Shown here: one piece after another, positions 2,291-55,110 of the stretch
Numbering within the stretch: position 1 is the stretch's first letter
Layout: each line of letters starts with the position of its first letter
Assembly (NCBI RefSeq): GCF_019059575.1
Contig: NW_024881540.1
Coordinates: 682,001-746,000, forward strand
Length of the DNA: 64,000 nucleotides
Source of the DNA: Amphibalanus amphitrite
Taxonomy: Eukaryota; Arthropoda; Thecostraca; Balanomorpha; Balanidae
Reading direction: 5' to 3'
Program-made: the position numbers and the translations under genes
The notes under the pieces: model-generated
The model's input: only the letters and a program-made list of their open reading frames with translations
What the model was told of the DNA's origin: nothing
Databases searched by the model: none

Positions 2291-2308
2291 GTGGGAGGGT
2301 CCCTTTAA

Positions 2309-3322
2309 CCCTATTCCTGGCGGGCTCCGCCGGGACAAGAAACTGGCGGGGGGGCCGATTCGGCCCCCCCCCCCCTTCAGATCTCAAAAACTACACATCG
2401 CAGCGACAAACGGCGAACGGTGTTTGATAGGTCGTTTAAAGATCTACAACTTTTACATAAAACATTTTCAGGTCAGGTCAATATTGAGGTCACCAGTGGT
2501 CATCAACGATAAAATGTTTTGGAATTAGTTACCTATATAACTTTTAAACTAAGAAACATAGAGACATAAAACCAATACATTTTTTGTTGCTCTCGCCGAG
2601 GCGATGCGAAATAAGTATGTGATGACCTTCACAGGTCAATTTAAAATTTGACCTGAGGTCAAGGTCAGGTCATTCATCAATGAGGTTGTGGGGTATGGTC
2701 ATGCTGCATACCAAACGACGCGCCTTGACCAGGCGAGCAGTTTGGTACCACTTACAAGTCTTTAGCACCATCATGTCGTGATTTATTGACAGAAAAACGA
2801 TTTATGACGTCACATGACCTCAGATGACCTTTGCCGGTGCCCCTGTCAATTAGCGGCACCAGGATCATCACCGATGAGATAATCTTCCATAATACTGAAA
2901 GAACTGGGTGGTTTTGACTCGTTTACACGAAGCAGGAGGCGTTTCAATATTTTCCCATAGGCTTGCAATGTAAAGGTCACGAGTCTGGCCTGACCTCAGG
3001 TCACAGATATGAAAATTCTGAGATATACAAATTGCACATACTGGTACCCTCACTAAAGCCTGAAGAGAAGAAATTGATCGGTCAAAAACTCTAGCTCTGG
3101 CGTGATTGCAAACTTTTCTGAGGTAGGGTCACCAAACCGCCTCTGCCCTCTGGTGACCTGACCTGAGGTCAGATCAACTCAAAATTTTCAGAAATGTTGC
3201 GTAAAAGCCTTTTAGAAAAAGTCAGAAAATTTGAGCTTCCTAGCTCAAAGCGTTTGGGAGATATAACCAAAAAACCTCAGGGGGGGGGGCTCCTGAGGCC
3301 CCCCCCCCCGCCAGGAATAGGG
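2309..3322. mobile_element. MITE-C, TTAA flanked, with G/C-run subterminal hairpins
   Basis: The termini are CCCTATTCCTGGCGGG and its inverted complement, flanked by TTAA (2305-2308 and 3323-3326). The left TTAA is shared with the end of MITE-A. Just inside each end lies a hairpin built on a G run and a C run (about 2346-2373 and 3281-3310). The body has many AGGTCA/TGACCT hexamers and no ORF of note. Confidence 0.85.
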
Positions 3323-3368
3323 TTAATCTAAGGAAAGACTACGCTCGCTTCGCTCGCTCCGTAAAAAG
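3323..3368 (-). repeat. Family X repeat, copy 1 (right end)
   Basis: After the TTAA element block the sequence continues as the CGCTCGCTTCGCTCGCTCCGTAA end of family X. The pieces 1-613 and 3323-3368 are therefore one older repeat split by the nested elements. Confidence 0.65.
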
Positions 3369-4144
3369 CAGTCTTATTATGATTTCAGCGTGAATAGCGG
3401 ACGTTCCGAAAATTTGAATGGTATGCCCAGCTTTGCGCTATTTCGATCGAAAAAGTTGTTAACTCCTTCAAAGTCTGACCCAAAAGCCGTTGCAATTCTA
3501 ATCGCCACGCAGTTTTGACTACGAATTTATGTAGGATAGGAAGGTTGACCAGATGATACTATGATTATGACTCTAACGAAGTCATCTAAATTTATCGTAA
3601 ATAGGTACCCAACAACATAGATAAGATGAAGTACCTACTGTATGGTAGGTATAAACGAGTTACTCCAGCGTAACATGGCAGTTCATGTAATTGATACCAA
3701 TACGTCTGCTGTATACCGCTATATGACCCTCGCCCATACACTATGATCTACACTGCAGCTGTGATGGACACTGGCCAGGCACTGAGGAGGTGCTTCGCAG
3801 ATCGATACCGCCCTTCGGCTTCGTGGGCCCCGAGCCGAAATCGGATTAGAAGCCGGTCGGACGGGTGGTCTGCCGCTCTGACGGAGCGACACCGAATCCC
3901 ACAGAACGGGGACTGTCTTATATACCTACATATTATGCTTTTTATATGTAGTTACGTTCTCCGACTTCCATTTCTTTGCGCAACTAGTATTCATTATCTT
4001 AAATCCATCGCATGCCTGCTACTTGATTCATACCTATTTTATCTCTGTACTGATAGGCACAAGGATGCCTAATCCCAAGTGTGTGACATTTCATATGTGC
4101 GAGATCCTATCTGTACTGCCGATAATATTACGAGTCACCGCGTA
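3369..4144. other. 5' flank of the rdgB gene, nothing recognised
   Basis: This is AT-rich sequence with no convincing coding or RNA gene. A GC-rich patch at about 3771-3910 has no similarity I recognise. Confidence 0.4.
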
Positions 4145-4418
4145 CCGGCTCAGACGATAGTGTGTCCCCGTGGTCTGTCAGGGCGCGCCCGGTCGACCTG
4201 TCGCGTCTGACACCGCCCGGGGCGGTCAGGTGTCAGGTGTCGGGCGACAGGGCTGCGTGCGCAGCGTTACGGCCGCCGCCGCGGTGCTTCTGCCGGCTCC
4301 GCCCGTCGCGTGACTGGTGTCTGTGCCCTGCCGCGCTGGTGACCGCTCCGTCCGTCTGTCTGCCGCCAGCAGCGGCCGGAGGTGTGCGCTCCCCCGGTGG
4401 CTCCGCTAACCGGCCACC
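4145..4418 (+). promoter_or_regulatory. GC-rich leader, probable 5'UTR or promoter of the rdgB gene
   Basis: This stretch is strongly GC- and CpG-rich compared with its surroundings and lies directly before the start codon. The context before the ATG is GGCCACC. I see no clear TATA box or Initiator, and the transcription start cannot be placed from the sequence. Confidence 0.45.
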
Positions 4419-4496
4419 ATGCTAGTCAAGGAGTACAGAATACCACTGCCGCTGACGGTCGAGGAGTACAGGATTGCACAGCTTTACATGATAGCG
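4419..4496 (+). CDS. rdgB: rdgB exon 1 (PITP domain start)
   Basis: This exon gives 26 residues beginning [20 protein letters not shown], the almost invariant N-terminus of the family, so the ATG is secure. It ends in phase 0 at donor GTGAGT. Confidence 0.95.
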
Positions 4497-16400: not shown

Positions 16401-19400
16401 GCAAGTCTGACGTCCCAGCTCGGCCGGCCGCTGCCGGCGAGGCCGGAGCCGCGCGAACCCTCTCCGATAGCGAGCCGATCACACGCCACCTGTCTCCGCG
16501 CCGGCCCTCGGGATGCAGGTGGGTGGGCGGGTGCAACTGCCGGCCGTCGGGCTGCAGGTGGGTAGTCTGGTACAGTCGCCGGCCCTCGGGCTGCAGGTGG
16601 GTGCCTGGGTAGTCTGGTACAGTTGCCGGCCCTCGGGCTTCTTCTTCTTCTTCTGTTGTCCGGCGATTCCGGCGGGCCGATCATCGAGCCTCCGGCAGGA
16701 GGCCAGTCCTCCTGAAGAACCTCAGCACCGCGTCCGGGTCCTCTTGTAGCACCGTCAGTGTCGGGGTGTGGCCGAGGAGCGCAGACCGCGCCGCCTGGTA
16801 TTTCGGGCATTCACAGACCACGTGTTCCGTGTCCTCCGGCACGCCACACTCGGGACACAGGCCGTCGGTGTCCGGCCTGTTCCATCTGGCTAGTGTGGCT
16901 TGGAGCAGTGGACAGCGGTTCGCTCGCAGCTGATGGAGCAGAACCTGGTCCCGTCTGGCCCATTCACTCTCATACTTCAGGCAGCGCCCGTCCGTCGCTC
17001 TCCGGTGTGCGTGCTCCGGGGGCACGGTGGTGTGGTACGTGCCAGACCATTTCTTCCAGCACACACCACGGATGGCCACTTTCGCCGACGGGAGGTCGAT
17101 CTTGGCCGTTTCTTGGGGGAGGGTCCTTCCGGTGTTTGCAGCCTGGTCTGCCTGCTCATTTCCCGCGATGTTTGCGTGGCCAGGGATCCAGACGATTTGC
17201 ACGTTCACTTTTCTGCGACTGAAATGGTTCAGGCCTGTCCATATCTCGGTAAGGGTTTCTGGGGCGGGCCCTCTGGTACCCTGTTTGAGGAAGGTTACCA
17301 GTGAGAGTGAGTCGGTGCACAGGCGGGTCGTCTTGACTTCCTTTGGGGCTCCCGCTGCGTCCCTCACAGCTGCCAGGAAAGCCACTTGCTCGGCCCGGTA
17401 CGAGCTTGACCACTTGCCGGCCGGTACGCTCCAGGTCGCGTTGCCTCGGCCTTGCTCGATGCGGACAACTCCCCCTCCGCCAACTCCAAACCCCTTCTCC
17501 GTGGAACCGTCAGTGTAGTAGGTTGAGTCCGTGGGCGGCAGGGATTCCAGGACGCGCTCCGCTGCCGCTCGCCTTCTTTCCGGTGGATCATGTCTGGAGG
17601 TGGTGTCACCAGATTCCGTGTGGAAGCTGATCCTTCCTTTCCCCATCGACAGCCACGGGGGGCGCGGTTGCAGGGACATTGCCTCCCTCTCCGTCTCCTC
17701 GAGCAGCGCTTCCTTCGCGATCTTGGTCGCTTCTTCGCGCCAGGTCTGCCGGTTCACGAGCCGCTTCCTCATCTTCCTGGTGACCGTCTGTCGGGCCGGG
17801 ACGCTGTCAGGGAGACGGATGACCCTCTCTCGCAGGATCGCGCCTTGTTCTTCAGCCAGAGAAGAGATGCTCCGGATGTTGGCCTCCGCCATCACCACCC
17901 TCGTCCTCGTGCCGGCGGGGCAGCCCGTGATGATTCGGGCTCCGGCGGCCGCGACCTGGTCCATCTTCTCCCTGTTCGTCTTCCGGCTCAGCGACATGTA
18001 CGCCGCGCTTCCATACAGCGCTACGGGTTGGATGAACTGGCAGTACATCCTTCGCAGGGTTACTGAGCTGCAACCCCACGTGGTTCCCGCCAGAGCCTTG
18101 GTGACTTGCAGTCGCTTTGCCAGCTTGCCCTTCAGCTGCTGTACATGCTGGGTGAAAGACAGTTGGGTATCGAAGACGACTCCCAGCACCGTGACTTCGC
18201 TGGTTTGCTGTATGATCGTGTCCCCCAGACAGATGTCCACCTTTTTCTTTGAGTTTACTTCGTGTACGTTGGAGGTGAATAAGATTGTCTTGGTTTTGGT
18301 GGCGCTGATTGTCATGTTCCAGGCGTAGGCCCATTCCTCTACTTCGTCCATTGCCGCCTGCACCTTGGCCTGGGCTGTGGGGACGCTGCTGTCACTGGCG
18401 TAGATGATCAGGTCGTCTGCGTACATGCCGATCTGCACGTCGTGCCGCCGCAGCACTGGTGCCAGGTCGTTGATGTAGCAGAGCCACAGGAGCGGTGAGA
18501 TCACTCCTCCCTGCGGCAGGCCCTCCCGCATCTTCACCTCTGCGGATGCCGTCTCGTCCCATGCCACCCTGGCTCTTCGATCTGCCAGGAAGTTCCTGAT
18601 CCACCTCATCATACATGGTGGAACATCCATGTCCGTCATCTTGTAGAGCAGACTGGTTTTGTTGACACGGTCGTACGCGGCAGTCATGTCTACAGCCACC
18701 AGGACTGTTCTCTTGGTGGGCTTCGCTTCCATGGCATCCATGATATCTTGGCCGAGTCGGGCGATCTGCTCCTCTGTGCACCGGCCGGATCTGAAGCCCG
18801 CCTGTTCTGGAACGAGGGTACCATTCGCTTCGAGCAGGTACGCCAGTCGGCCCTGGAGGAGGCGTTCGGCCAGTTTGCAGATGCAGCTGGTGAGGCTGAT
18901 GGGGCGGTACGACGACGGCTGTTCCGGGGGTTTCCCGTTCTTGTGAATCGGTATGATCTTGGCTCTGCGCCAGGCGGTGGGCACCTCTCCCGATGCTAGA
19001 CTCTTGTTCAGCACTCTGAGGAGCGTCTTCCTGCCCGCCGTGCTGAGTTCCTTCAGCATCTGTGGCATCACTCCGTCCGGGCCGGGGGCACCTGTTTTCA
19101 TGTGAGACAGGGCCACTTCCAGCTCCGTCAGGCTGTAGGGACGGCAGACTTTGCCCCGGCAGTTTGGGTGTTGCTTGCATGGTTGGGCTACCGCCTTGTT
19201 CACCGCCTGTCGTCTGGCCTTCTGGTGGTCTCTGAGTTCCTGGTTTGAGGCTGAGTATTGTGATTGGCTGACTTGGGCATAGTGTTTAGCCATGACATCT
19301 GCTTTTTCCTTCGCTGTTTTTGCAGATCTTCTGTGCACTTTCAGGATAGCTGTCGATCCCTGCTTCTTCCCGCGTCCATCCATCGCCTTGATTGTGGAGT

Positions 19401-22400
19401 AGAGGCGCGAGTTGTCTGTCGCCGCGTCCATCTTCTCGCATTCGCGGGCCCATGCGTTCAGCTTTGCACGTTTTACAACTTGTTTCGCTTGTGCGGTTTT
19501 CTCTGTGCATTGTGCCATCAGATCTTCGTTTCCAGGGTCTCTCCTCAGGGCGTCTCGGGCTTCCCTTCTTTGCTGCACGGCTTCTTCGGCTTCTTCACAC
19601 CACCATGCTTTCGCGTCCACCAGGCCCTCGGGCTGCAGGTGGGTGGGTGGGTGCAGTCGCCGGCCCTCGGGATGCAGGTGGGTAGTCTGGGTGGGCGGGT
19701 GCAGTCGCCGGCCCTCGGGCTGCAGGTGGGTAGTCTGATATAACTGTTGTTTTATCACTGGCTGCTGGTAGGTCTGATCAAGGCAGTGGCTGTAGGGTCA
19801 TCAGAGCTGGCACAGCCGCCGACTCTAGCCAGACTATCACATCGTCACATTTACAAGAATATTATACTGTTTTCATCAGAGTGCGTTGGTGAATACTGTT
19901 GGGTTTTGGGTTCCACCGTTAAAAAGTATCAGGATATAATCTCAGTTTTGATTCTTAAGACTAAGTGGCTCGAGTTCCAAAGTGGCGCCGGGCACCTAAC
20001 GATGTGTTTCGGTTACAGCGATCACCACTGGCGACTCGAGTTCGACGTCACCGACCTGTTCATGTTCGGTGCACCGCTCGGACTGGTGCTGGCCAGTCGG
20101 CGAATGTATCTGCCCGAGGAGAACAGAGGTACGGCCAACCAGCCAGACGGGGACATCGCTGTTTGTGTGGTTGTGAGGAGTCATCGGGAGCAAATATGCA
20201 ACAGGGGACGAGGAACACTTTTGATTTGGGCTGAGAATGGGACATCGCCGAAGTCGCCCGCTAAGATTTTATGACTGAATTCACGATTTAACTCAACATT
20301 CATTTCCTATAACACACGCCTGACTGTTTTTATGATTCTTTGGGTTACTTTAAGTGGGTTTGGTTGAATGACTTGGCACATTTATTTGAATTAGCTCATC
20401 TTTCTCCGGCAGTGCCGCCTCGTCCGGCGTGTCACAATGTGTACAACCTGTTCCACCCGACTAACCCGGTGGCGTGCCGGCTGGAGCCGCTGCTGTGCTC
20501 CCGGTTCGCTGCAGTGCCGCCGGCGACTGTGTGTCGGTACCACAAGTACCCGCTGGGCGACGGACAGCCCACCCACCTCCGTGAGTCGCTGCGGGCAGAG
20601 GCGGACTTTGGAGGCTCTGTTAACAGTCCTATTGTGACAAGCGAATGGAATAATCCTGCAGCACTAGTTGTGTCAAATAAACAAATTGTTTCCGGAAGTA
20701 GTTCGAGTTTTCTTTTTTGTTAAATGGTTGTCCTAATGTTCAATCAACCCTCTCAATACTATGTCTTAAAATTTAACCCGGCCCTTTTCCCCCCACCACA
20801 GTGGAGTTTGTTCAGAGCAATATGCAGCTGCTGGGTGAGCCGTCTGGCGGCGAGGAGCGGCGCGCCGGCGGCGTGTTCCGGCGCGAGTCGGCCGCCTCCG
20901 TCCTCTCCACCATGTCCGGTCTGGACACACTACACCTGCACACCGTCAACCACATGGTGCAGCGGTGGTGGGGCAGCAAGCGCATCGACTACGCGCTCTA
21001 CTGCCCCGAGGGTCTCGCCAGCTTCCCGGCCCAGGTGCTGCCGCATCTGTTTCACGCCAGCTACTGGGAGAGCCAGGACGCCATCGCCTTCATTCTGAGA
21101 AATGTGAGAGACAATATGTGGTATGGTCGTGATGTAGGAGAGCACTTAAGTCAAATGTGTATAGAAGTGTCGAAAGTTGGCCTTCTGTCTTCCGTCCGAC
21201 GAATTGCGAAGAAAGGGTGCAGCGAAGTAGATTTTGCTTATCTTTTAAATAAGGGCATGTGTCTCTTTTCAAAATTTATATCCACTCCCTCCCTCTCCCC
21301 TCTCCTGCTCCCCTCCTGCTCTCCCACCAGCTGCTCTCCCATTTCCTCCCCTCTCCCAGTCCTTCATCTTCCTCTCGCTCTCTTCCACTGGACTAGGCAT
21401 CAGCATGTCGATCAGGCGTTGGCACTGCGCTGACTCGGTGAGCGATACCGCGCGTCATGTATCTGCCCGTGTGCCGGCAGCTGTTGGGTGGCGATCAGCA
21501 CAGCGCCGGCGGCGACAGCCGCGACGGCGCTGCCGGTGCCCTGTTCTCCCCGGCTCAGCCGCGCGAAAAGTGGATTCGGAAACGCACCTCGGTCAAAATC
21601 AAGAACGTGACACCCAACCACCGCGGCAACGACGTGGTCGTTTGCGAGGGTGTGCCGCAAGTGCTGACTGCGCGCTTCACCTACGGACCCATCGACATGG
21701 TCTCCCTGACCGGCGAGAAGGTGGGTCGACAGGAACGCTGAGTTACTTCGCTCTTTATCTTGGACATACAGGTCATGTAGCAGTGTCATAAAACATTTTC
21801 CTTGCAGGATCTTGAAGATCGTGATTTCCCTAGCTTATGGTCACCGATGACCTCTGAATTCCGGGCGCAATAAAATCACAACTCGTCATTTCCGACAGTG
21901 TTAGACATTACTTTCTACGTGTTATCACTAATTCTCTATCACAGGTGGACATTTATTACATGGCCGAGCCGCCGGGTGGCGACTGGCTGCTACTTGGCAC
22001 CGAGGTGTCCGACAAGAGTGGACGGGTGACCTTCACCATACCGGCGGCCAAGGCGCTCGGATACGGACTGTACCCCATCAAAATGGTCGTCAGGTGAATA
22101 GGAACAAAATACCAAGGGAACTTGCCATGACTTTCCACGACGGGCAGATCATGTCCAAATAAACCGTGATTAAAACCGTTCAGTTTATTGGTGATTAACC
22201 CGCGCCCGGCTGGGGGTCCTGGATTTCCACGCCCTGCTGGGGGTGGGGGGGGGTGTGTTTGAACACCCCCCCTTCTAACTCGGCTCCTGGGCCACGTAGC
22301 GATACGCGGAAGGCGGCGTTCGAAAGAGCGCCAAAAATAATGACGAAATCACTTCGGTCACTTTTTTGGTCAGGTCAAAGGTCAGATCACCAGAGGTCAT

Positions 22401-25400
22401 TGAAGGCAAAATTTCGCCGATTTTCAGGTCGAATGTCGACAATTTCCAGGAAGCCAACGCATAACTCGGGAACCAATAAAGCTACAGCGCCGCGGAAAAG
22501 CGCATTCGATAGCCCTATTAACGCCCTTTCTGAGTAATTCTCTCAGATTTGACCTAACGTCAACGGTTTTGCCTGCAGGGGGCAAAAACTGCAAAAATAG
22601 CCGATTTTTTTCGGACAGTTTTTCTACAATAACTTTTGACCCAAGCCTTGTACGAGCTTACTTTTACCGGCATCGTGTTCCTCTCGGCAAGACGCATCGA
22701 ATGAACTATAACTTGACCTTGAAAGGTCAACTTGAAAATTTGACCTCAGGTCAAGGTCATGACCTGACCGGAAAGGGTCATGTTGCATAGCAGTCGATCC
22801 GTATCGTCGAGCTGAGCACATCTAAGGCGTTTTCACCGCTCTAGCATGCCTCTATCAAAAGTTATTTGCGAAAATCTGTTAGACACCATTCGTGACCTGA
22901 GATGACCTCAGGGGCATAAATCAGTCGGGGAAACTATGGTAAAATCTGCTATTTTTAGCAGTCTGCTATTTTTAGCAGAAATCTGCTAAAAATGGGTACG
23001 CATGTGACGTCATCGTACCCAAATATAGCAGATTTGGGTACGGCCCCATACAAAAGCAGATCTGCACCCTAATTGAAGCAAATGCGCATCAAATGCCTGC
23101 CAGATTCATGATTAGAATAGTGCTGAGAATGTCCTCTGATATTTTTGTTCAGATCCGACTATTTTCAAATAATGAATTTGAAAATAGTCGAATCTGAACA
23201 AAAATAGCAGAGATCACTCTCAGCACTATTCTCATCATGAATCTGCCAGGCATTTGATGCGCATTTGCTTCAATTAGGGTGCAGATCTGCTTTTGTATGG
23301 GGCCGTACCCAAATCTGCTATATTTGGGTACGATGACGTCACATGCGTACCCATTTTTAGCAGATTTCTGCTAAAAATAGCAGACTGCTAAAAATAGCAG
23401 ATTTTACCATAGTTTCCCCGACTGAAATAGGGGTCACGGACACCATTTTCATGTTCAGTGTGTCTAAACCACTTGTAATTCAGTTTTTGGTAGTGTTTAT
23501 AATGTCTTTCGCCCAAAAGAGGCGCGTTTCAATTTTCTCCCATTGACTTATAATGGGGAGGTCGCAAAGTTGACCTGACCTTAGGTCACCGATATCAAAA
23601 TTCCGAGATATAAATTTGATAGATACTGTTACCCTTATCAATCGCTGAAAGTTTCAAAGTGATCGGTCACTCGGTGTAGCTATGGCAGACATTGAAACTT
23701 TTTATGAGGTGAGGTCACTTCAAGTGACCTGGTGACCTGACCTTGAATGACCTTGGTCTGAAATTCTCACAACATGTGTAGAATTTTTTAGATATTCGCA
23801 AAAAAAACAAGGGGGGGGGTGTTCAAACACCCCCTCCCCCAGCAGGGCGCGGGTTAAATGCTTCAGCTGAAGGACCTACGTTCAGTTGTAAACTCGGCTG
23901 TCTAGCAGGCTGTACGGCACGCGTTATTTGACACTGCACGTGCCTGTCTGCCAGGGGCGACCACACGTGGTGCGACTTCCAGCTGTGCGTGGTGCCGCCG
24001 CAGACCGAGTGCGTCGTGTTCAGTATCGACGGCTCGTTCACGGCCAGTATGTCTGTGACGGGACGCGACCCCAAGGTGCGCGCCTCATCCGTCGACGTCG
24101 TCAGGTCAGTGGAGAGAGGCGGCTGCACCTGTGTGGGATGTTAGCTGATAGTGAGTGTGGGTGTGAGAGGGGGCGAATGGATGGTTTCAACTGGTTTTGC
24201 TCAATGGATTCGCTTGCTGGCATTCAAAGCGGTGACACTAAAAATGGTATGCTCTCTTGCGTGCCAAATGCTCCCGGTCTGTTGCTTTTCCAGTCGGCAT
24301 TTCCAGCACTCTTGACTGAACGCAAACCGTTATATTTTTTAATACGAAAGCACAAACTTACATTTCTTCAGCTACAAGTTTTATTAATAAACCTGCTGCG
24401 TTATACCTTGCCAGTGATCAGACATAGGCCGCAGCGTCAACACGATCTTGGAAAACGCGTTACAAGTTTCTACTGACATATAGTACATATGCTGGTTTTG
24501 AGGTGGGTAGATTTGTCAACGGTAACGGTGTAACCATATATCCAACCAATATATCTGTGTGTAACCACTGCAGGTGATAATTCAATTGTTTATCCTCCTG
24601 TAATGGCAGGCACTGGCAGGAGCTGGGCTACCTGATCATCTACGTGACGGGCCGTCCGGACATGCAGCGGCGCAAGGTGCTCTCCTGGCTGTCGCAGCAC
24701 AACTTTCCGCACGGTCTGGTGTCGTTCGCCGACGGCCTGACCACCGAGCCGCTCAAACACAAGGCCGACTACCTGCGCCAGCTCGTCGAGGTGGGCACGT
24801 GACCTCGTGACCTCCGGGCTCCGCTGCGCTCGTTTCACCTCTGGTTCAGGATGAACACATCTCTAAGGTGCTTTCGGGTTTCTGTGCATGCATCTGTAGG
24901 AAGGTGTCGCCGATTAAAACTGAGTTAACGCTTTCATTTGTATCTGGTAATGAACACCTTTCGCAGTCTTTGTAATTGCTCAAAGCGGCTGCCAGGGTGT
25001 TTGAATTCTCCAGTTTGTTCCTTATTGGGTCATATTCGTGGCCTGACAAAATAATATCGCTACCATTGGTATCAAAACTACGACGTGTTCATAAACTGGC
25101 ATCATGCACATAATTCACGCATGCCCAATTATCCTAATGCACTTTAAATCCAACAGGCCAGCCTAACGTCACAATATGTTGACTTGACCTTATATGACCT
25201 AAAATGATCAAGGTAAATGCAGGGAAGGTTTTTCAAGCGGACCCTGAACTAAGCATAAATACGTTTTTTGTCCCTTTCTTCACAGTACCAGTTAAAATAG
25301 GTACACGTTTTGCAAGACCTTGCGGGACAAGCACAGCCTTGACAGACAGATACCAGGAACTGCCGCATGTCCATTGTCCAATGTCCATATTATCTGACCT

Positions 25401-29881: not shown

Positions 29882-30347
29882 TTCAACGATTTCACATGCC
29901 TTGCACCTTCAAAATGTTTAGAAAAAATGAAGTAGTGTGTAGGATATACGAAAGAGTGCGAAGTTTGAGGTCAATTTTGATCGTGACATTGACTCTTACC
30001 TCGAGTACATCATACATCAGACATCAGACATCCTATGAGTACATCATACGCGGAAGCGATACGCGAAACATCCCCCCCCCCCCGGCCCCCCTTCTAACTC
30101 GGCTCCTGGGCCACGTAGCGATACGCGGAAGGTGGCGTTCGAAAGAACGTCAAAAATAATGAGGAAATCACTTCGGTCAATTTTTTGGTCAGGTCAAAGG
30201 TCAGGTCACCACTCACCAGAGGTCATTGAGGGCAAAATTTCGCCGATTTCCAGGTCGAATGTCGACAATTTCCAAGAAGCCAACGCATAACTCGGGAACC
30301 AATAGAGCTACAGCGCCGCGGAAAAGCGCATTCGATAGCCCTATTAA

Positions 30348-30826
30348 AGGGACCCTCCCACCTTAACATTAGATTTGAGTTGAGATAGCCAAAATGGGGT
30401 CCCTGGCTCACAATTACCGGTTTCGGCACTCACAACATCGAGAAATGCCTTAAATCGGAAATATTGAATTTCAAAATTGCAGCATTTTGATTCAGAGGGG
30501 CTAATGCTGAGGAATACCCCTCTGAATGTGTGACGTCAGCGCAGATATCTAACGATTTTTAAATGTTTGACTAAAACGTTTTGTAGCACGCGGTGGTATA
30601 TGCTATTTGCGCGCAACATCTGCCGCAAACGCCGCACTTCTAAAATAAAGTCGCTAGGAACAGCGGAGATCCCCAAAAAAGTAAACAAAAGTAAAAGTCT
30701 AATATCTTGAAAACCGGTGAATATTTTTCGGTGAAATTTGGTAGATATTCGTTTTCGCTCTTTCTGAACCGAGCGACATCACTTTCATGCCAATTCATAA
30801 ACTTTTTTGAAGGTGGGAGGGTCCCT
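30348..30826 (+). mobile_element. MITE-A copy, forward
   Basis: This 479-bp unit begins AGGGACCCTCCCACCTT and ends with the inverted complement. It is flanked by TTAA at 30344-30347 and 30827-30830. It is the undisturbed version of the element at 618-2304. Confidence 0.92.
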
Positions 30827-30830
30827 TTAA

Positions 30831-31308
30831 AGGGACCCTCCCACCTTCAAAAAAGTTTATGAATTGGCATGAAAGTGATGTCGCTCGGTTCAGAAAGAGC
30901 GAAAACGAATATCTACCAAATTTCACCGAAAAATATTCACCGGTTTTCAAGATATTAGACTTTTACTTTTGTTTACTTTTTTGGGATCTCCGCTGTTTCT
31001 AGCGACTTTATTTTAGAAGTGCGGCGTTTGCGGCATATGTTGCGCGCAAATAGCATATACCACCGCGTGCTACAAAACGTTTTAGTCAAACATTAAAAAA
31101 TCGTTAGATATCAGCGCTGACGTCACACATTCAGAGGGGTATTCCTAAGCATTAGCCCCTCTGAATCAAAATGCTGCAATTTTGAAATTCAATATTTCCG
31201 ATTTAAGGCATTTCTCGATGTTGTGAGTGCCGAAACCGGTAATTGTGAGCCAGGGACCCCATTTTGGCTATCTCAACTCAAATCTAATGTTAAGGTGGGA
31301 GGGTCCCT
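30831..31308 (-). mobile_element. MITE-A copy, reverse, head-to-head with the first
   Basis: This 478-bp unit is almost the exact reverse complement of 30348-30826. The two share the central TTAA (30827-30830), and the outer TTAA is 31309-31312. Together they form a palindrome of about 960 bp. Confidence 0.92.
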
Positions 31309-32101
31309 TTAACGCCCTTTCTGAATAATTCTCTCAGATTTGACCTAACGTCAACGGTTTTGCCTGCAGGGGGCAAAAACTGCAAAAATACCCGATTTTT
31401 TTTCGGAAAGGTTTTCTGCGATAACTTTTGACCCAAGCCTTGTACGAGCTTACTTTTACCGGCATCGTGTTCCTCTCGTCAAGACGCATCGAATGAACTA
31501 TAACTTGACCTTGAAAGGTCAACTTGAAAATTTGACCTCAGGTCAAGGTCATGACCTGACCGGAAAGGGTCATGTTGCATATCAAAGACTTCATAAATTG
31601 CATTTTTCTTACTAACGAACATATTCCACCGGTCTTAGCTAGGACGGTCGGTTTCTTTTGCGCGGCGTAGTTAGGTCGCCGCCCTCCTCGCGAGGCCGGA
31701 ACTTGGCCACTAAAAAAAGTGCTGTTAGTCTGGCGCCGCAGGATAAAAGTGAAAATAGGTCCAGTTCGACGGACGCCAATTGAGCTGCGCTGTTCGTCAA
31801 CCTCGAGCACCTCGAGAACAAGAAAGGCCAAGATACCTATAAGAAACAGAAAGGCATTCGGTTTTCTGGAGGCCACGTGTGAGGACGTTTCCGGAGAGGA
31901 GAGACATAAGCGTCAAGATCTAGAAGTTGCTATTTGGTTATTGCTTTTCTTTAATTTAATTGTCTTTGAGAGAGGACGATTAACTGGAGGGTGGTGAATA
32001 TTCCACCGACTGGTTTTCGCTGTTGAGTTCATTCAAGGCCATTTCATTTGTACTTGTAGTTGCATTCGGAGGTCGGTAAGTAGGCGTATGGATTGGACGT
32101 G

Positions 32102-33514: not shown

Positions 33515-33776
33515 TCAGGAAACCACCAGACCTACTCATAGGTATAATCAGGGTGTTATACCTTTTGTTCATATTGAACATATTGTACTATTGTTATTTT
33601 TGTGTCATGTGTATGACAAGGTATACTATGTATACCAAACTTGACACAATGCATCATATCAGAGCTGAAGTCAGCAACTATTTATTTTTGTTTTGTTTTT
33701 GTTTCATGCCTAGGCGATTTCAAAAGCCAGGCACCGGACTCTCCCTAGAGAGGGCCACATATGTGTTTGCGACTCA

Positions 33777-34823
33777 ATGTTTATTTACGGCTTTAGACAC
33801 TCTATTAATGTGACTCCTCAAATCCTTCAATGGAATGCACGTGGACTTATCGGAAAATGGGCCGAAGCAAAGCCACTATTCACGCAAGGGCAATTTAAGG
33901 TTCTGTGTCTGCAGGAGACCCATTTCCTGGCAGACGATATATATGATTTCAATTTACCACGATTTACGAAATATAGCAGCTTTTCTCCCAATGGAGATCG
34001 ACGAGGTGGAGTGACAATTTATGTTACCAATGATGTACCACATTTTCAGCTGAATTTACAGAGCTCCCTTCAGGCAGTGGCCTGTGCAGCAAGATTGAAC
34101 AATAGAAGAATCACTTTTTGTTCCTTGTACCTTCCCCCAACATACAACTTCACATTGCAAGAGCTCACAGATCTCATTGATGAACTACCTAGACCGTTCA
34201 TCTTATGCACTGATGCTAACAGCAAGCACCTGATGTGGGGTGCCCCTCATTGTGACAGAAGAGGGATTTTATGGTTAGATGTTATCAATCACTTTGGTCT
34301 TCGTATTCTCAATGATGGACAGCCAACACGATTAGACGAAGCCTCGGGGGAGGTTTCCCACATTGATCTTACACTTGCATCAAGCGATATAGCGCACATT
34401 ATAGATTGGAACACTGACAAAGACCTCCGTGGCAGTGATCATTTTCCAATTTACCTGAGCCTTATTGATGCTATGCAAGGTTTCATTGATCTCCCAACCT
34501 TGTTTTCAGGCTGGAACATGAAAAAAGCAAACTGGACTGAATTCCAGACCCAATGTGCCTTTCATTTTGACGATGACATGGGTATCGACAATTATGACGC
34601 TATCACCAACGCTATTATTGAAAATGCCCAAAAGTTTATACCGTCTAGAAACGGAAATGGAAAATACCATTGTCCATGGTGGAATGATGGATGCAAAGAG
34701 GCGATTCGGGATCGACGAAGAGCTCAAAACAGGATGAGGAGGGATCCTCACTCTGTTTTCCTTCGAATCGAGTATAGGAAACAAAAGGCGAAAACGAGAC
34801 GTGTGCTTAAGGACGCACAGAAG
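33777..34823 (+). CDS. LINE ORF2 part 1: AP-type endonuclease
   Basis: The N-terminal part of ORF2 begins ILQWNARGLIGKWAEAKPLF and has VLCLQETHF, the DANSKHLMWG block and GSDHFPIYLSL, the ordered motifs of an apurinic-like endonuclease that nicks target DNA. The frame runs to the AAG codon at 34821-34823 and is then broken by an inserted element. Confidence 0.88.
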
Positions 34824-35512
34824 AGCGCTGTTCGGCAGCCGGCTATTTTGTGTGCAGGGTATGACGTATTTCACGAGCCGACGTCACAGGCGGTGACGTC
34901 GGCTCGCGCGCGAGCCGAGCGCCAACGACAAACTAACGGGAACCCTCGGACACCCTCGGGGCATAAACCGCGGAGTAGCATATTGAGCGAGTCTTATAAG
35001 GAAAATTCACATATTTTCGTTTCTCAAATGATAATCAGGGTGTCTCTTACCTTTTTACATATCATTTAGGCTTACCTAACACTTCAGTTGCCAAATATCT
35101 GCAATTTATTCTAGCGAAGGTATTATCAGTTAATATCAATGCTATAGACCGAAATCTTTTGAATAAAAACTCCAATCAACAGAAATAAAAATAACTTAAT
35201 TTATTCCAACCATTTCCTCCACATAAACAACGTAAAAACTCACTTTTACACACATCATTCATAATAAAGCATACTAACACGCCACTTTAGACAATTGCGG
35301 CGTCGAGTGGCGCGCTGCTAGCGCTCTTTTTCGATCGCAGAGACCCTGCACGCACGCGAGCACACTACGTCACGTCCGGGGGGCACAGGTATATGAAAAA
35401 TCGCAGTGACGTAACACTTTTCTCGCTTCTCATTGGTCAATAGCCCGTTGCCGGGGTAACGTGCACGTATGTGAGCGCGGGCAAGAGTACTAGCCGGCCG
35501 CCGATCAGGGCT
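34824..35512. mobile_element. 689-bp TIR element inserted in LINE ORF2
   Basis: The left end AGCGCTGTTCGGCAGCCGGC and the complement of the right end AGCCCTGATCGGCGGCCGGC match at 17 of 20 positions. AAG flanks each side (34821-34823 and 35513-35515), a likely 3-bp duplication. Removing the element and one AAG leaves the LINE codons in frame. A 14-bp hairpin, CGAGCCGACGTCAC and its complement, lies at about 34873-34905. No ORF; superfamily not assigned. Confidence 0.85.
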
Positions 35513-36984
35513 AAGGCCTCATGGCACGAACTTTTATCGATTTTTAACCACCGCACCCCAATGAACAGGTTATGGGAAATATTGCGCCGGTTTACACATA
35601 AAACCAGAACAATGCGACCTTTCCCTGTACTTAGTGTTCAAGGGGGAGGTCTTGTCGATGAACCTCTTGCTGTTGCCAACATGTTCGGAGAGTTCTTTTC
35701 GAATATGAGTGCTAGAACGAACTATTCTGACAGCTTTTTAGCTCACGAGTACGAGCTCCGTGAAAACTTACCAGATTTTGACGACGATAACCACGAAGAG
35801 TACAACCAACCCTTCTCGATGCGAGAACTCATGAGTGCCATTAAACACTCTGGGTCGACGGCTGTTGGGCCGGACCAGATCCACTATGACTTTTTCAGAC
35901 ATATGCACGAATCCCAGATTGGAGAACTACTGACATTGTTTAACTTTATATGGACGAATGATGTTTTCCCGAACTCATGGAAACATTCGTTCATAGTCCC
36001 GATACTTAAACCGGGGAAAGATTGCAACAAAGTGGAATCCTACAGGCCAATACAGTTGACTTCTTGCATGTGCAAGCTGCTTGAGCGAATGATTGCCAAA
36101 CGACTGAGCTGGTGTTTGGAACGACATGATTTGTTGTCGACCTACCAATGTGCCTTTCGTCCAGGGAAATCAACGGTTGATCACCTGGTACGAATCGACT
36201 CGCATGTTCGTGACGGTTTTTTGCATCACTGCAGCACCCTAGGAGTTTTCCTGGATATAAAGTCGGCCTACAATATGGTTTCACCGACCGTGGTACTTCA
36301 CAGAATGTACCAAATTGGTTTCCGAGGTCACCTGATGCATTTTGTGAATAATTACCTTACGAACAGAACCTTCCAGGTACGGTGTGGAGTTTTATCAGAT
36401 GTGTATCAACAGGACTATGGTGTGGTTCAAGGAGGAGTCATTTCACCTCTACTGTTTAATATTGCGATTGACTCTCTGTCTGACCGAATTCCACGACACG
36501 TCTCGCTAGCTATATACGCTGACGACTGTACTATCTGGTCTCAGGGACGCTCAATTGAGAACATCTCCATACTGATACAGCAGGCCTTGAACTGTATAGG
36601 GGAATGGGCCAACGAGAATGGGTTTACGTTTTCAGCACATAAGTCCAAGGCTATACTATTCCGCCGAGGGCTTCGACGAGTGGATGCCAATTTACCACCG
36701 CTGATGCTGAACAATGACTGTATTCCCCTGGTACAGCAAGTGAAATATTTAGGGATGATACTCGATTCTCGTCTGAATCTATCCACACACATGGAATATA
36801 CGAAAGGCAAAGCGATTAAGAGAATTGCTATCATGAAAAGCATCGCTGGAAAAAGATTTGGCGCAGACCGAGCGACTCTACTCAGACTGTACTCGACGCT
36901 TGTCCGACCTATCCTCGAATATGGATCACACATCCTTGATGGGGCTGGCCACAGTAAAAGCAAGGCGTTAGAAACTACAAAACA
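35513..36984 (+). CDS. LINE ORF2 part 2: reverse transcriptase
   Basis: The reading frame resumes with ASWHELLSIFNHRTPMNRLW. It contains [74 protein letters not shown] and the catalytic YADDCTIW. The frame shifts by one base near 36975-36985, so the downstream part lies in another frame. Confidence 0.88.
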
Positions 36985-38249
36985 TGTGTCTCCGCATAGC
37001 AACAGGAGCGTTACGCACTTCTCCGGTAAAAGCCATGCAGGTTGATACCCATGTGTTTCCACTCGAACTGAGACGACAAGGCCTACTCCTCAGGTATTAT
37101 TTAAAGATGGTGAGCGACAACCGACATCAGAACTACTCACTGATGTCCACAGTCTCCACTGATCAAACATACGAGGATGTTTCCGAGACATACATGCAAA
37201 GAATCGCTGGGATGCCCCTTAAATTCCGGCTGAAGCGGTTATTCTCCTCCATGCAGTTTCTCCCACCTGGTAATATCACCAAACCTGAAGGGAATATTCC
37301 ACCATGGTTGCTTACTGAGATTGATGCTGTCATGTTGACGGAGAATAAACGAGCAATGACAGACGCTGATGTCCAGACGGCTTTCCATGAACTTATCGCC
37401 ACTTACCCTGGTTACAGGATATTCTTTACCGATGGCTCTAAAACGGACACGTCAGTCGGTTGTGCCTTCACATTGAACAATGCCTTTTTTTCTTTTAAGC
37501 TTCCTGGTGAAGCCTCCATATATACTGCCGAACTGTTCGCAATCCTCGCAGCAATGGAATATATCCGAGACAACCGAGTGCAACGAGCCGTCGTTTGCAC
37601 CGACTCTCAGTCTGCGGTCATAGCGCTGACCTCACAAAGTCGGGAGCATCGTCTACTGGTAGATATATTAGAGCTGTACCACATAAACTGGCGAGACGGA
37701 CTTCTTTGCACGGTGGTCTGGATCCCAGGACATAGAGGGATTTCTGGCAATGTTCGTGCTGATTACTGGGCAAAGAAGGCACACCAAAAAGACCGAACCA
37801 CTCCGGTCAAAATGAGTTACAGAGAACACATTCCTCGTGTGACGGAATGCATCTCAAAGAGATTCGCCAAAGAGTGGGAAGAGTATAGATCAACCCAACT
37901 CAAACAAATTAAGCCACTCACCGGACATTGGAAGTCCTGTCACCGCAAAAATCGTACAGAGGAGGTGATACTGTGCCGACTGAGGTTGGGACACACCGTT
38001 CTTACTCACTCTTATATTATGGATCACACTCTTCCACCGATATGCGACACATGTGATGATGACTTGGATGTTTCACATCTTCTTCTTGATTGTCGACGTT
38101 TTTCCACTAAGAGACAGAGTCTGAGAACGATCTGTCGAATGGCTCGTGTTCCTATGAGTCTAAACACATTGCTAGGTGATAAGGACATCACCATCATAGA
38201 CGCGCTGTTTCTTTTTCTCCAACAGTGCAATCTCATCAACAAATTGTAG
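36984..38249 (+). CDS. LINE ORF2 part 3: RNase H and C-terminal Cys/His motif
   Basis: The frame shows IFFTDGSKTDTSVGCAF, ASIYTAELFAILAAMEYI, VVCTDSQSAVIAL and VVWIPGHRGISGNVRADYWA, the RNase H catalytic blocks. A C-terminal CDTCDDDLDVSHLLLDC zinc-like motif follows. This frame starts just before the point where the reverse transcriptase frame degenerates. Confidence 0.88.
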   Translation: MCLRIATGALRTSPVKAMQVDTHVFPLELRRQGLLLRYYLKMVSDNRHQNYSLMSTVSTDQTYEDVSETYMQRIAGMPLKFRLKRLFSSMQFLPPGNITKPEGNIPPWLLTEIDAVMLTENKRAMTDADVQTAFHELIATYPGYRIFFTDGSKTDTSVGCAFTLNNAFFSFKLPGEASIYTAELFAILAAMEYIRDNRVQRAVVCTDSQSAVIALTSQSREHRLLVDILELYHINWRDGLLCTVVWIPGHRGISGNVRADYWAKKAHQKDRTTPVKMSYREHIPRVTECISKRFAKEWEEYRSTQLKQIKPLTGHWKSCHRKNRTEEVILCRLRLGHTVLTHSYIMDHTLPPICDTCDDDLDVSHLLLDCRRFSTKRQSLRTICRMARVPMSLNTLLGDKDITIIDALFLFLQQCNLINKL

Positions 38250-40162: not shown

Positions 40163-40166
40163 TTAA

Positions 40167-41096
40167 CCCGCGAGTTGCTGGGGGGGGGGGGGGCGTTAAA
40201 CGCCCCCACTTTTTTCGCCGGGCCATAGCATAAAAATGGCGCGCCGCAGGCGCGCCAAATTTTGGGTACCTGTAGGGAATTGATTGAAGTTTATTGTGAC
40301 AAAGTTTCAAAAAAATCGGTCGGAAAATTTTTGAGATATCGAGGTTTTAGTGACGTCATGATTTCTGAGTTTTCGACCAAAAACGGCATATGTTCAAAAA
40401 ATCATATAAAATCACAGAATAGAGATACAGACATGCCGTAAACGCCATTAGAATGCCAATACCATGAACAATCAAATGGCTATCTTCGATTATTGATTAT
40501 CGTTCCGCATTTTCCAAAATCTTGAACTGAATCTTGACAATTTCTCGTGACTACTTCACGACCATGATACATGAATTTCTTAAATTGAGCTTTTTGAGCC
40601 AAACACGTACACATATGATAAAATGAATGTCACCATCGTGTTCTACGGCCCAAATTACCCACAAAACATGTGTCATAGGCTGCAAATAACAGTTTTGATT
40701 TTCGGGGATATGTGCCTACCCGGTTGACCTGACCTTGACCCTGACCTGACCTATGCTTGACTGACCCCTACATGAAACTGACACTCTTGTAGGCCTTATA
40801 TGATGGATTGTGCACCGTTTTGACAGAGTTTCTGACGAGAGGCGCCCATTGCGAAGTCCTGAAGTCCATGCTACTGAAAGCCTGATTTCAGGTGTTTGAC
40901 CTGACCTTGACCCGACCTGTGACCTCAAAATTCAACTTTAAAGTACTCATCTGAAGCGTCTCGTCGCGTTCTTTCGTTTGCCGCCTCGTGCGTTTCGCTG
41001 CGCCTATTGGTTCTCGAGTTATCGGCTGGGGGCGTTTAACGCCCCCCCCCCCCCCCAGCAAACGGTGGGTGGCGAAACACCCCAGCAACTGCCGGG
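40167..41096. mobile_element. MITE-E, TTAA flanked
   Basis: The TIRs are CCCGCGAGTTGCTGGGG and CCCCAGCAACTGCCGGG, with TTAA at 40163-40166 and 41097-41100. Subterminal hairpins at both ends pair a G run with a C run around CGTTAAACG and CGTTTAACG. The interior has clustered TGACCT/AGGTCA hexamers and no ORF of note. Confidence 0.88.
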
Positions 41097-41269
41097 TTAA
41101 TGCTCTGGCACACTGTCCGATGTGATGTGGGGCTGGAGGTCAGTGGAGGTCGACCGCCCTGACCCCGGCTGGAGGTCAGCTTGTCACGGCAGCGTTGTAT
41201 ACTGTCCCAGTGAGAATTATCCCACCCCAATCCAACTCAGCCCAGCCCAGCCCATTGGAGAATGATGAC

Positions 41270-41863: not shown

Positions 41864-42589
41864 GTGAGTTGCCCAGCAGGCTCGTTAAGACTGTGCGCGG
41901 CACACTACACCTTTTTGCATTTGAATTCAACTATTCGCCATAACTGTTTAAGGAGCCATTTTGACAATCGGCATTGAACGCAACTATTCCAGCGTTGTGT
42001 GTTTCATTTCAGCCATTCAGCAAAGCAGATTGAACACTGAAATGAGCGATCTACAAAATAGTTTGACACGTCGCTAGACTTCGGCATTGAGCGAGCCAGC
42101 TCGGTATGACGAATAGTTTCGACCATCGACGATTTGTTTTGCACAATGCTGAACCATTCGCTCAATGTCGAGTTGTGGAGGAAGACCGCCGAATAGTTTT
42201 GCACAATGATTCTTTGTGACCAACCGCCCATTTGTAGCGCCACCTATATGGCGAATGTGTACAAATGTTTTGCCCAATGGTCAGATTCTAACGCAAAAAA
42301 AGGTGTAGGTTCTAAGTAAGCAGTCCAAGATTTCCGAGTTTTGGGGGTCCCCACCTAACTTGCAGTTTGCTGCAGCACTGCTCCTACCCGTTTGCAACAC
42401 GCCTGATAACAATTATTGATGCTCTCCCCCCCCATATTTATCAAATCAATGAATTTTTTAGAATGGTCAGTTATTTTTGTTTTGTTTTTCAGATAAGGGT
42501 TCTTCTGTCTTCAATGCAGCGCTGGATACTAGGTGCTGAATAAGTGTTTTGACAGCTTTGTGCAGTCCTAAGCACCGCCCTGAAGAACC

Positions 42590-42694
42590 ATGTCAGGAAG
42601 CGATCTGGATAGGTTTATGCTGGCCTGCTCCGACCTCAATCAGCCAGCCAAATCACGGCTCTTTCAGAATCGTCCTGGACTCAAGGATATCAAG
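42590..42694 (+). CDS. Synergin-like exon with start codon
   Basis: The exon gives 35 residues beginning MSGSDLDRFMLACSDL. The ATG context is AGAACCATGT, with upstream in-frame stops. The donor AAG|GTAAGT is strong. Confidence 0.8.
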
Positions 42695-45600: not shown

Positions 45601-48600
45601 AATTTTGAATTATTTTGTTTTTCAATTTCAATTTATTTTGCTCCACTAAATACCACATGGTGGGCTGTCACACCGGGAACCTTCCACTTTCCCTCCGAAA
45701 CGAGCTAAGAGGTTGACGTGAAGACGTCATAGACGGGGTTTTGAGACGTGATAGACGTGACACGACGACATAAAAATGACGCATCAAAGTGACTATACGT
45801 TCATGCAACTTATACCTAGCGAATATGTGAAACAAATTTCAGGAGTGTCGCCATTGCGTTTTTTTCCATTGGAATAATTTACACGTCATTTTTTGAAGGA
45901 GGCGCCTAGCCCCTTCATGGGTAGCACTGCACCCCGTTTTTTAGGACATTTACCCATGAGCACCTCTTTGAAGTATCTCCACATGTTTTACGTACCCACA
46001 GTCGCATTTGGGCGAGGTGAATGACTCAGCTCGTTAATTCTGTGAGTCCCCCTCCCCCACTCCACAAATGGCTTCTCACCAGGCACCCGTTACAGACACG
46101 AACGCCCCTTCAGAGGGGCGATTTGTGTTTCAATGTTTACACTCATGAAAACCATGCCGACCTCCGAGCATGGTAGGCCCACTCGAATGTGAATGCTCCC
46201 GGCTTGTTGGTACAATGACCAAATTCAAGCTGGCGTGTTCTATGTTACATTGCACTTTGCACGTCAGTGTTGATTAACCCTCGCTTGGCGGGGGAGGTTG
46301 ATGCAACCTCCATAAGGTTTTTCGTACGTAGCGGAAATGGCGGCGCGTAGGGCCGCCAAATTTGGCATATCCTATGGGGCATCCTTTAAGCACATTTTCT
46401 GAAAATTTCCTGCTTCAGTCCTGTCAGGCCATGTCACCAGGCCCCGAAATTGGTACGTTGCCAGGTTAAAATTTAAATAATAACAATATCAGAATAACAC
46501 ACACAGCCTTTTTGCAAATTGCGTAAACACGGTGGACGTAGCACCACTAAATTTCTGACACTTTTTAGGGCATCTATCTGACACATGTCTCGAGTATTTT
46601 TTTGTCCAGGTGACCTCAGGTCAGGTCACCAGGTCACGAAAACCCGTAAATCGTCAAATTAAGACCGAAATCACACTTATTTCACGTGTTTTAGCGATTT
46701 TTTTAAATTTATTCCTCCAAAATTCCAAATATTGACCTGAACTCACCAAACTTGTACGGACGTGAGAACTTTAGCGGGTCCCCTGTAATGCGTGGTTCAC
46801 ACCGGATCCGTAATGACGCCGTAACCGTTACGGACGTAATGAGCTAGAGATTTCTCAAGATTCCCCAAGCATTGTGACTTTTGTAGACGAAGTTGAAATG
46901 TGGCAACCAGTCGCCGTAAACTGGCAGCGTCCACCGTACTCGTTACGGAACGTAACAGAAGTTGGGAAAATTGAACTTTTCGGCTCGACCGGCCGCCGTA
47001 ATGACTTTTATCGACATGTATCTCCAAAACGGTTTGACTGTTTGATGAGCGGTCTTCTTTGGGGAGGGGCTGCATCCTTTCTACCCTGAACTGTGCTATT
47101 GATATCACTCATGTGTGCCTGTTACAGCACGTGTCACGTGTACAGCACGTGTCACGTGCGACGAGAGAGGTTCCAAAAGAGCTCGTCATACCATAACTCG
47201 GGAACGGCTGAATGGAAACGGTTCAATATTTGTTTGTTGTTTTGGCTGGGTGCACACTACACATCCCGTGACCTTAGGACGATTTCGAATTGCCTCAGCG
47301 CGTGCGCACGTGCGCACCCCTTTTTCACATCTCGGGATTGGCTGTGCCAATCGCACCCATATTTGGTATGGTGAGTGACATCATGTTCATATGCAAATTG
47401 CACAGGTTGACAAAAGCATTGATCTGCACGTGCGCACGTGCGTGCCCCTTTTTCATATCTGGGGATCGGCTGGGCCGATCGCGTTCATATTTGGTGTGCT
47501 GAATGACACCATGTACATATGAAGATTGAACAGATCGGCAAAGGCATTGGTCTGCACGTGCGCGCGTGCGTACCCCTTTTTGGCATCTTGGGATCGGCTG
47601 GGCCGATAGCGCTCATAATAAGTATGCTGAATGACACCAAGTTTATTTGTAGATTGCACAGGTCAGCAAAAGCATTGATCTGCACGTGCGCACGTGCGCA
47701 CCCCTTTTTCATATCTGGGGATCGGATGGGCCGAAAGTGCTTATATCAAGCATGCTGAATGATAACATGCTTATATGTAGAATTCACAAGTCGGCAAAGG
47801 TATTGATCGGCACGTGCGCACGTGCGCACCCCTTTTTCATATCTCGGGATCGGCTGGGCCGATAGCGCTCACATTTGGACTTTGGTATGCTGAATGACAC
47901 TACGCATATAAAGTATGCAGATTGCAAAGGTCAGCGAGAGTATTGGTCGGCACATGCGCACGTGCCCACCCCTTCTCACATGTTGCGATTGATTGGGCTG
48001 GTCTGGGTAGCGGGTAGCGGTCTGCTCGTGTGCAAGTGCGGACCTTTCTACTTGAAAAATCGTATCAACTCGCCGACTGATTTTTAGGCATTATTTCATG
48101 TAGGTATGCCTTCAGTATGTCACAACCTACTATGTATCTCTTGAGTGACGTACATAAAATTCATGTTCCGTAATTACATTTCACTCGTTTATTTAAAGAT
48201 GACATTTCCTTCGTAGGCCTAGCCTAGCCCTAATCATGTAGGTATGCTACAAGTCAAGTTCAAAGTCCACAAAATAAATTCCAATGCATAGATTCTCGTG
48301 CCACGTCTTTTATGCAGTTCTGAGTCAACTTCGCTGCCCATATTGCCCCTGCTAGACTTGATGCTTGGACGGACACTGCACCGCCTCTTCGCAAGCCAAT
48401 TGAGCAAACTGTACGATGCGTACGTTGATCTTGCCCATGGATAGCAGCCATTCACGAGTGCAGAAAATGAACTTCAGCGTTGACCAGCATGGGCATGTTT
48501 TCTTGTTTATGCCAAAAAAGGATAACAGATTCTCTGTATAGTATCATGCCCACAATTGTAGTTAATTAACAATGATATGCCTCCATAAAATTATAAACCA

Positions 48601-55108: not shown

Positions 55109-55110
55109 TA

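Follow-up and report, generated by a model that had tools for sequence, protein, structure and literature searches.

What is preserved at the ends of a transposable element when the sequence of those ends changes? The question is raised by a 64,000-nucleotide stretch of DNA from Amphibalanus amphitrite (RefSeq assembly GCF_019059575.1, contig NW_024881540.1, positions 682,001 to 746,000 of the forward strand; hereafter the window, with coordinates counted from its first letter), in which four non-coding elements, here called C, D, E and F (0.9–1.7 kb for C to E), begin with TTAA-CCC and carry a palindrome near every readable end. An earlier, sequence-only reading of the window had seen in these palindromes hairpins that may function in folded form. 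We propose that C, D, E and F are quite probably non-autonomous elements mobilised by piggyBac-superfamily transposases, which would read each palindrome as duplex DNA through a dimer of their cysteine-rich domains (CRDs), with the long end of an element giving the asymmetry for synapsis; the "hairpins" are most likely transposase docking sites rather than a new kind of signal.

Element ends and their palindromes

The four elements, with their flanks and terminal inverted repeats (TIRs), are as follows.

2305..3326, plus strand: element C with TTAA flanks, exact on both sides; long end left, short end right; TIR match 16/16; interior homologous to D.
22195..23857, plus strand: element D with TTAA flanks, exact on both sides; long end left, short end right; TIR match 15/16; contains a nested 505-bp inverted repeat.
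40163..41100, minus strand: element E with TTAA flanks, exact on both sides; short end left, long end right; TIR match 14/16.
46274..46785, minus strand: element F, starting TTAACCC at 46274; short-type end left; interrupted at 46786 by another element.

The TTAA-CCC start that had been ascribed to all four is borne out, F showing its TTAA at the left end, the only one that can be read; no right end of F was found, its 21-base end matching only itself with up to 3 mismatches allowed. In 20 windows resampled from a first-order Markov model, TTAA/TIR pairs arose at 0.05 per window at 13/16 and at 0 above 13/16. CCC forms the first three bases throughout (CCCTATT in C, CCCGCGC in D, CCCGCGA/CCCGGCA in E and CCCTCGC in F), a TIR start that the available excerpts of the piggyBac literature give as conserved in a large number of piggyBacs.

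Further in, the sequence-only reading had described a hairpin at each readable end, and a palindrome does stand at all seven; three more, noticed post hoc, lie beyond them.

2348..2370, unstranded: C long-end palindrome; centre nt 51.
3280..3308, unstranded: C short-end palindrome; centre nt 29; read either with a 7-nt loop or with a mismatch and a 2-nt spacer.
22247..22272, unstranded: D long-end palindrome, core TGTTTGAACA; centre nt 62.5 for the core and 61.5 for the best-scoring register.
23811..23838, unstranded: D short-end palindrome, core TGTTTGAACA as at the long end; centre nt 29.5.
40189..40207, unstranded: E short-end palindrome, core CGTTAAACG; centre nt 32.
41028..41046, unstranded: E long-end palindrome, core CGTTAAACG as at the short end; centre nt 60.
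46293..46311, unstranded: F short-end palindrome, GGAGGTTG ATG CAACCTCC; centre nt 25.
3230..3249, unstranded: C second short-end palindrome (post hoc); centre nt 83.5.
40237..40257, unstranded: E second short-end palindrome (post hoc); centre nt 81.
46338..46358, unstranded: F second short-end palindrome (post hoc); centre nt 71.

The best scores are 11 at both ends of C, 10 at both ends of D, 9 at both ends of E and 8 at the left end of F, whereas 451 other TTAA flanks of the window average 4.6, and 20 of them reach at least 8, the score of the weakest of the seven; these control flanks exclude both sides of the seven end TTAAs, and hence also the right end of a further TTAA-flanked element at 614–2308 (palindromes scoring 7–11), and still include flanks inside C, D, E and F. 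Dinucleotide shuffles reached the observed score in none of 400 trials for C left, C right and D right, and in one for D left. Perfect hairpins with arms of at least 9 are common in this repeat-rich window, which holds 32, six of them at these ends (the F arm is 8). The stem had been characterised as a G run pairing with a C run, which fails for F, whose stem is GGAGGTTG/CAACCTCC. The second palindromes occupy nt 71–83.5 in three of the four short ends (24 of the 451 control flanks have one there at a score of at least 7), with none at the short end of D or at the three long ends.

TTAA duplication is also a trait of the Kolobok superfamily, whose termini are 5'-RR, and TTAA elements with purine-start AGGGACCC ends lie in the same window, so that membership of the four elements in another TTAA superfamily such as Kolobok has to be weighed. 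We consider it highly improbable: the tips of C, D, E and F are 5'-CCC, not RR, and on this ground Kolobok membership is rejected. Moreover, three of the four ends of two RR-type elements (two of these ends being identical) lack a palindrome of at least 7 in nt 8–75, while the fourth, at the right of 614–2308, has three palindromes, scoring 7–11, in a GACTCAA-rich tract.

The three complete elements each combine one short with one long end, an asymmetry that the sequence-only reading does not mention. The palindrome centres lie at nt 25–32 in the short ends and at nt 51–62.5 in the long ones, and a G motif, GGCGGG or GCTGGG, occupies nt 11–16 in C, D and E and nt 10–15 in F. In the long ends the 9-mer of nt 9–17 is repeated inward.

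2317..2325, plus strand: C long end, first G motif (nt 9–17).
2343..2351, plus strand: C long end, second G motif; 26 bp further in, 8/9 identical.
22207..22215, plus strand: D long end, first G motif.
22234..22242, plus strand: D long end, second G motif; 27 bp further in, 8/9 identical.
41053..41061, minus strand: E long end, second G motif; 27 bp further in, 9/9 identical.
41080..41088, minus strand: E long end, first G motif.

The best recurrence of the 9-mer in the four short ends is 4, 4, 6 and 7 of 9, and a recurrence of 8/9 is seen in 4 of 451 other TTAA flanks. Once the shift of 26–27 bp is subtracted, the palindrome centre lies 25–35.5 nt in at all seven ends.

Symmetry, descent and the proposed mechanism

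That the palindrome cores differ from element to element, yet are each self-complementary, is confirmed when four core pairs are counted in each of C (long end), D, E and F: every one of the 16 is complementary, whereas nine arm swaps leave 2–6 of 16, and all four pair positions show changes on both sides. The pairs were counted on hand-set cores, because MAFFT, given all seven ends, broke up the long-end insertion in one way in C and in another in D and E, and the short-end core of C was left out because its 2-nt offset makes the register ambiguous. Chance palindromes are rejected on the arm-swap control together with the TTAA-flank and shuffle controls. The symmetry evidence comes from four families rather than from many copies. 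Within these limits an end signal kept while its sequence changes is supported, as is piggyBac-like transposition, both of which had been suggested.

The four elements had been said to differ in sequence, a claim that is too strong for C and D, whose interiors prove homologous (matches of 72% over 196 bp and of 77% over 84 bp; local score 288 versus 29.5 ± 3.8 for shuffles), the matches pairing long end with long and short with short; that pair at least therefore shows change on homologous ends. E and F are only weakly similar to C and D (z 4.1 for C–E, 8.5 for C–F, 3.8 for D–E and 8.8 for D–F, F being scored with 48930–49130 included), with weaker matches joining E right to D left and F left to D right. 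Much of this similarity comes through the AGGTCA motif discussed below. The window also holds a relative that the sequence-only reading passed over.

30086..31584, plus strand: D', a partial copy, 93–96% identical, of D's long-end half.

D' is interrupted at 30344–31312 by an unrelated TTAA element and begins inside the C arm of the palindrome, with the TIR and the G arm missing, so that, of two D-type copies present in the window, one is without the left hairpin; as D' also lacks the TIR, it is uninformative about selection.

The palindromes might, on the other hand, be functionless by-products of slippage in the G/C tracts or of fold-back duplication. Long G/C tracts do favour palindromes, some 3% of shuffles reaching those of E, and the end of D' retains only a C tract; but the cores outside the tracts are self-complementary in each family counted, the stem of F is not a simple G:C tract, and the position relative to the tip and to the G motif is kept in diverged elements, all of which makes an origin of this kind improbable.

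A further alternative, that of the sequence-only reading, is that the palindromes are extruded as hairpins or cruciforms and recognised by their shape, by the transposase or by a host factor. Folded as single-stranded DNA, all seven ends can indeed pair (z −1.0 to −3.7), the long ends of C and D at z −3.60 and −3.66, but four of the seven are weaker than −2 (z −1.00 to −1.91), and G/C-tract composition accounts for part of the folding. One core is common to both ends of D, and another to both ends of E, which is what recognition by sequence would need and what shape alone would not. The core spacers of 1–3 nt (C long end, D, E and F) likewise suit a dimer site, whereas the short end of C needs a 7-nt loop or a mismatch, and the piggyBac structures, in the available part of their description, show a CRD dimer on a kinked duplex of such a repeat (PMC7351741). 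Recognition by shape keeps a small share of probability mainly because C is symmetric with different cores at its two ends (CCGATTCGG at one, CCTCAGG with a 2-nt offset at the other), and a 2025 preprint (PMC12324416) suggests, in the portion available, that hairpins or cruciforms at piggyBac-like inner repeats are possible for PGBD5. On balance, we regard it as unlikely: a functional folded end is not needed where the piggyBac CRD dimer reads an equivalent palindrome as double-stranded DNA.

We return, then, to piggyBac-type elements with duplex docking sites. The anatomy, the spacings, the symmetry and the C–D homology are read directly from the window, and from them we infer a transposase, CRD binding, mobilisation in trans and co-evolution. 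Each end would comprise a CCC tip cut at the TTAA, a G motif at about nt 11–16 and a palindrome; a dimer of the C-terminal cysteine-rich domains of a piggyBac-superfamily transposase would bind the palindrome as duplex DNA, the G motif would dock the transposase core, and the long end, with its second G motif 26–27 bp inward, would be the asymmetric partner required for end pairing. The core sequences would differ because each family follows its own transposase, and the two-fold symmetry would be kept because a dimer reads the palindrome.

Several observations weigh against this proposal. The CCCG tips of D and E fall outside CC[C/T]T, a terminal motif that C and F fit (CCCT) and that is given as general in the available part of a paper on coral CMITE elements (Acropora); the motif is not universal, because a piggyBac-like element starting CCCA is on record in the same source. 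Shuffles match the palindromes of E (13 and 11 of 400), of F (6 of 400) and, once, of D left; the shuffle counts taken together therefore indicate that the palindromes are real and that G/C-tract composition contributes to those of E. The palindromes extend into long G and C tracts, such as the available portions of the piggyBac literature do not describe. When nt 18–90 are shuffled, the three long ends match their own G-motif repeat in 18, 55 and 1 of 2000 trials, so that, end by end, the repeat is not rare, and it is the near-identical spacing across three elements that tells. The differing cores of C are not expected under strict reading by sequence, though "IIR" elements, with differing repeats, are known. 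The case for E and F sharing an ancestor with C and D is weak: the E–D matches rely on the G/C-tract ends, and D left is matched by E left as well; D–E scores 48, against a maximum of 52 among 100 shuffles; and E–F scores 46 in the orientation the model expects and 54 in the opposite one. Lastly, no transposase family in Pfam was found among 10 of the 33 listed open stretches of the window.

The feature itself is of a known kind, and what is new here are families of non-autonomous elements, resembling miniature inverted-repeat transposable elements, with piggyBac-type ends, in which the end plan (tip, G motif, palindrome and one extended end) is kept while the palindrome sequence changes between families. 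If this proves true across the copies in the genome, co-evolution of the CRD and its DNA site could be tested from sequence, and piggyBac ends and specificities would become easier to predict.

AGGTCA clusters and neighbouring features

The interiors may hold a second conserved layout. AGGTCA, which we take to be the nuclear-receptor half-site hexamer, occurs with its complement TGACCT 60 times in the 4657 bp of C, D, D', E and F, versus 47 times in the remaining 59343 bp, and is gathered in clusters.

2470..3171, unstranded: C, five AGGTCA/TGACCT clusters; gaps 171, 171.7, 167.7 and 172 bp.
22372..23753, unstranded: D, six AGGTCA/TGACCT clusters, one a single hexamer; gaps 154.5–190 bp with the nested 505 bp left out.
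40725..40925, unstranded: E, a pair of AGGTCA/TGACCT clusters spaced by 170 bp; distances to the long end 187 and 357 bp.
46611..46738, unstranded: F, a single AGGTCA/TGACCT cluster, followed after 112 bp by a lone hexamer.

Random placement equalled this evenness in 0 of 5000 trials for C, 2 of 5000 for D (nested repeat left out) and 524 of 5000 for E, whose two clusters alone are uninformative on phasing; with cluster shape kept, the counts were 0 of 2000 for C and 2–8 of 2000 for D, and the shorter motif GGTCA weakens the phasing (19–38 of 2000 for C, 197–339 of 2000 for D). The distances of the first two clusters from the long end are 187 and 357 bp in E, 186 and 354.5 bp in D and 172 and 343 bp in C. 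A recent tandem-repeat origin is disfavoured: the inter-cluster segments of C are mutually dissimilar (six pairs, forward scores 14–20 and reverse 14–21, shuffle means 16.8–18.2, all within 1.6 standard deviations), and no tandem array is listed there. The base composition of C, D and E shows no 170-bp period (top lags 101–104, 257–260 and 116–119, respectively); on the side of a tandem origin, masking of the motif leaves weak lags at 163 in C (z 2.3, fifth listed) and 169 in D (z 2.1, fourth listed). The phasing is a post hoc observation, and C and D are related. We offer only as a tentative and rather doubtful suggestion that the half-site clusters, about one nucleosome repeat (~170 bp) apart and with a spacing partly preserved while the intervening sequence changed, let the element position its own chromatin, or recruit a host nuclear receptor at each linker, and so stay accessible to a transposase acting in trans. 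Among the literature matches listed, AGGTCA and piggyBac occur together only in a review of liver nuclear receptors (PMC12192644), by its title unrelated to such elements, and a search on nucleosome spacing with five of six terms gave no match. Phased clusters would matter if they reflected chromatin positioning by a transposon, and are worth a genome-wide look.

Other elements surround or invade those described. The element inside D', at 30344–31312, is a AGGGACCC-ended (5'-RR, Kolobok-like) inverted dimer, whose near-identical halves, each of ~485 bp, meet at a single TTAA; it sits at a TTAA of D', and the corresponding site in D is empty. A second AGGGACCC-ended TTAA pair spans 614–2308, and its right TTAA is the one that flanks C, so that C may have inserted at that boundary. 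The inverted repeat nested in D (22921–23425, 505 bp) has arms 97% complementary around a 5-nt spacer, and the element nested in F (46786–48929) has 32-nt perfect inverted ends and 4.5 copies of a 128-bp tandem repeat. Perfect 31-nt inverted ends at 53774–55110 enclose an open frame of 386 codons, whose helix-turn-helix matches are weak and fall below the Pfam cut-offs; this is possibly a recent Tc1/mariner-like element. Outside C, D, E and F, a perfect palindrome, CTGCACGTGCGCACGTGCAG, recurs at 145, 272, 14253, 14373, 49450, 50337 and 50465, in full at five of these positions and as its 18-nt core at the other two. Reverse-transcriptase elements are also present, with RVT_1 and RNase_H in one frame at 16681–19797 and with endonuclease, RVT_1 and RNase_H in successive frames over 33714–38249; Rfam at gathering scores matched nothing in the window. 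Viral contigs were scanned twice by exact pattern, each scan giving one locus; neither stretch has a TTAA pair with TIRs of at least 12/16, and both loci were taken as chance.

Comparison with known systems

The sequence-only reading did not know such hairpins as a general feature of piggyBac elements, and the literature, as far as the available parts of the papers go, answers this doubt, since subterminal palindromic or inverted repeats are published for piggyBac, the left end of piggyBat, CsuPLE1 and human and invertebrate piggyBac-like elements. Asymmetric subterminal palindromic repeats are not a trait of all members of the superfamily. The ends of Trichoplusia ni piggyBac, LE35 and RE63, are asymmetric, with a palindromic-like repeat of 19 bp in each (Chen et al. 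2020, PMC7351741); according to the accessible text of the same paper, the CRD dimer binds bp 17–33 of one left end as a kinked duplex, and the right end has a 17-bp insertion with a sequence duplication. The repeats lie 3 and 31 nt from the TIRs in the account given in the excerpted preprint (PMC12324416). The elements described here share with T. ni piggyBac the TTAA target, a short and a long end, a palindromic repeat in both and a long end arising by insertion and duplication; they differ in the palindrome sequence, in stems that run into long G/C tracts and in being non-coding, without a visible transposase gene.

In piggyBat of Myotis lucifugus, as set out in the available section of PMC11707139, GCGGGA stands at bp 11–16, 55–60 and 99–104 of the left end, each time followed by an imperfect palindrome. 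The likeness extends to the G motif at about bp 11–16 before a palindrome (GGCGGG or GCTGGG here) and to more palindromes further inward, which the second short-end palindromes of C, E and F recall; unlike piggyBat, which by that section has its palindromes on the left end only, the elements here have them at both ends. The preprint excerpt cited above also presents piggyBac-like elements with identical repeats at their two ends (STIR) and others with differing ones (IIR) (PMC12324416); D and E resemble the former and C the latter.

The coral CMITE elements of Acropora are, in the excerpt available, likewise piggyBac-linked and non-autonomous, with TTAA, CCC tips and families that differ in their TIRs while having the interior in common, but they measure ~100 bp with a 75-base conserved interior, against 0.9–1.7 kb with AGGTCA clusters here. 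Human MER75, MER85 and Looper, and CsuPLE1, whose subterminal inverted repeats are asymmetrically placed, also have subterminal or inner inverted repeats at their ends; G/C-tract stems are absent from the partial descriptions of these elements, on which, rather than on their sequences, the comparison was made. The layout thus matches published piggyBac ends closely, while the palindrome sequences and the G/C-tract stems are particular to this lineage.

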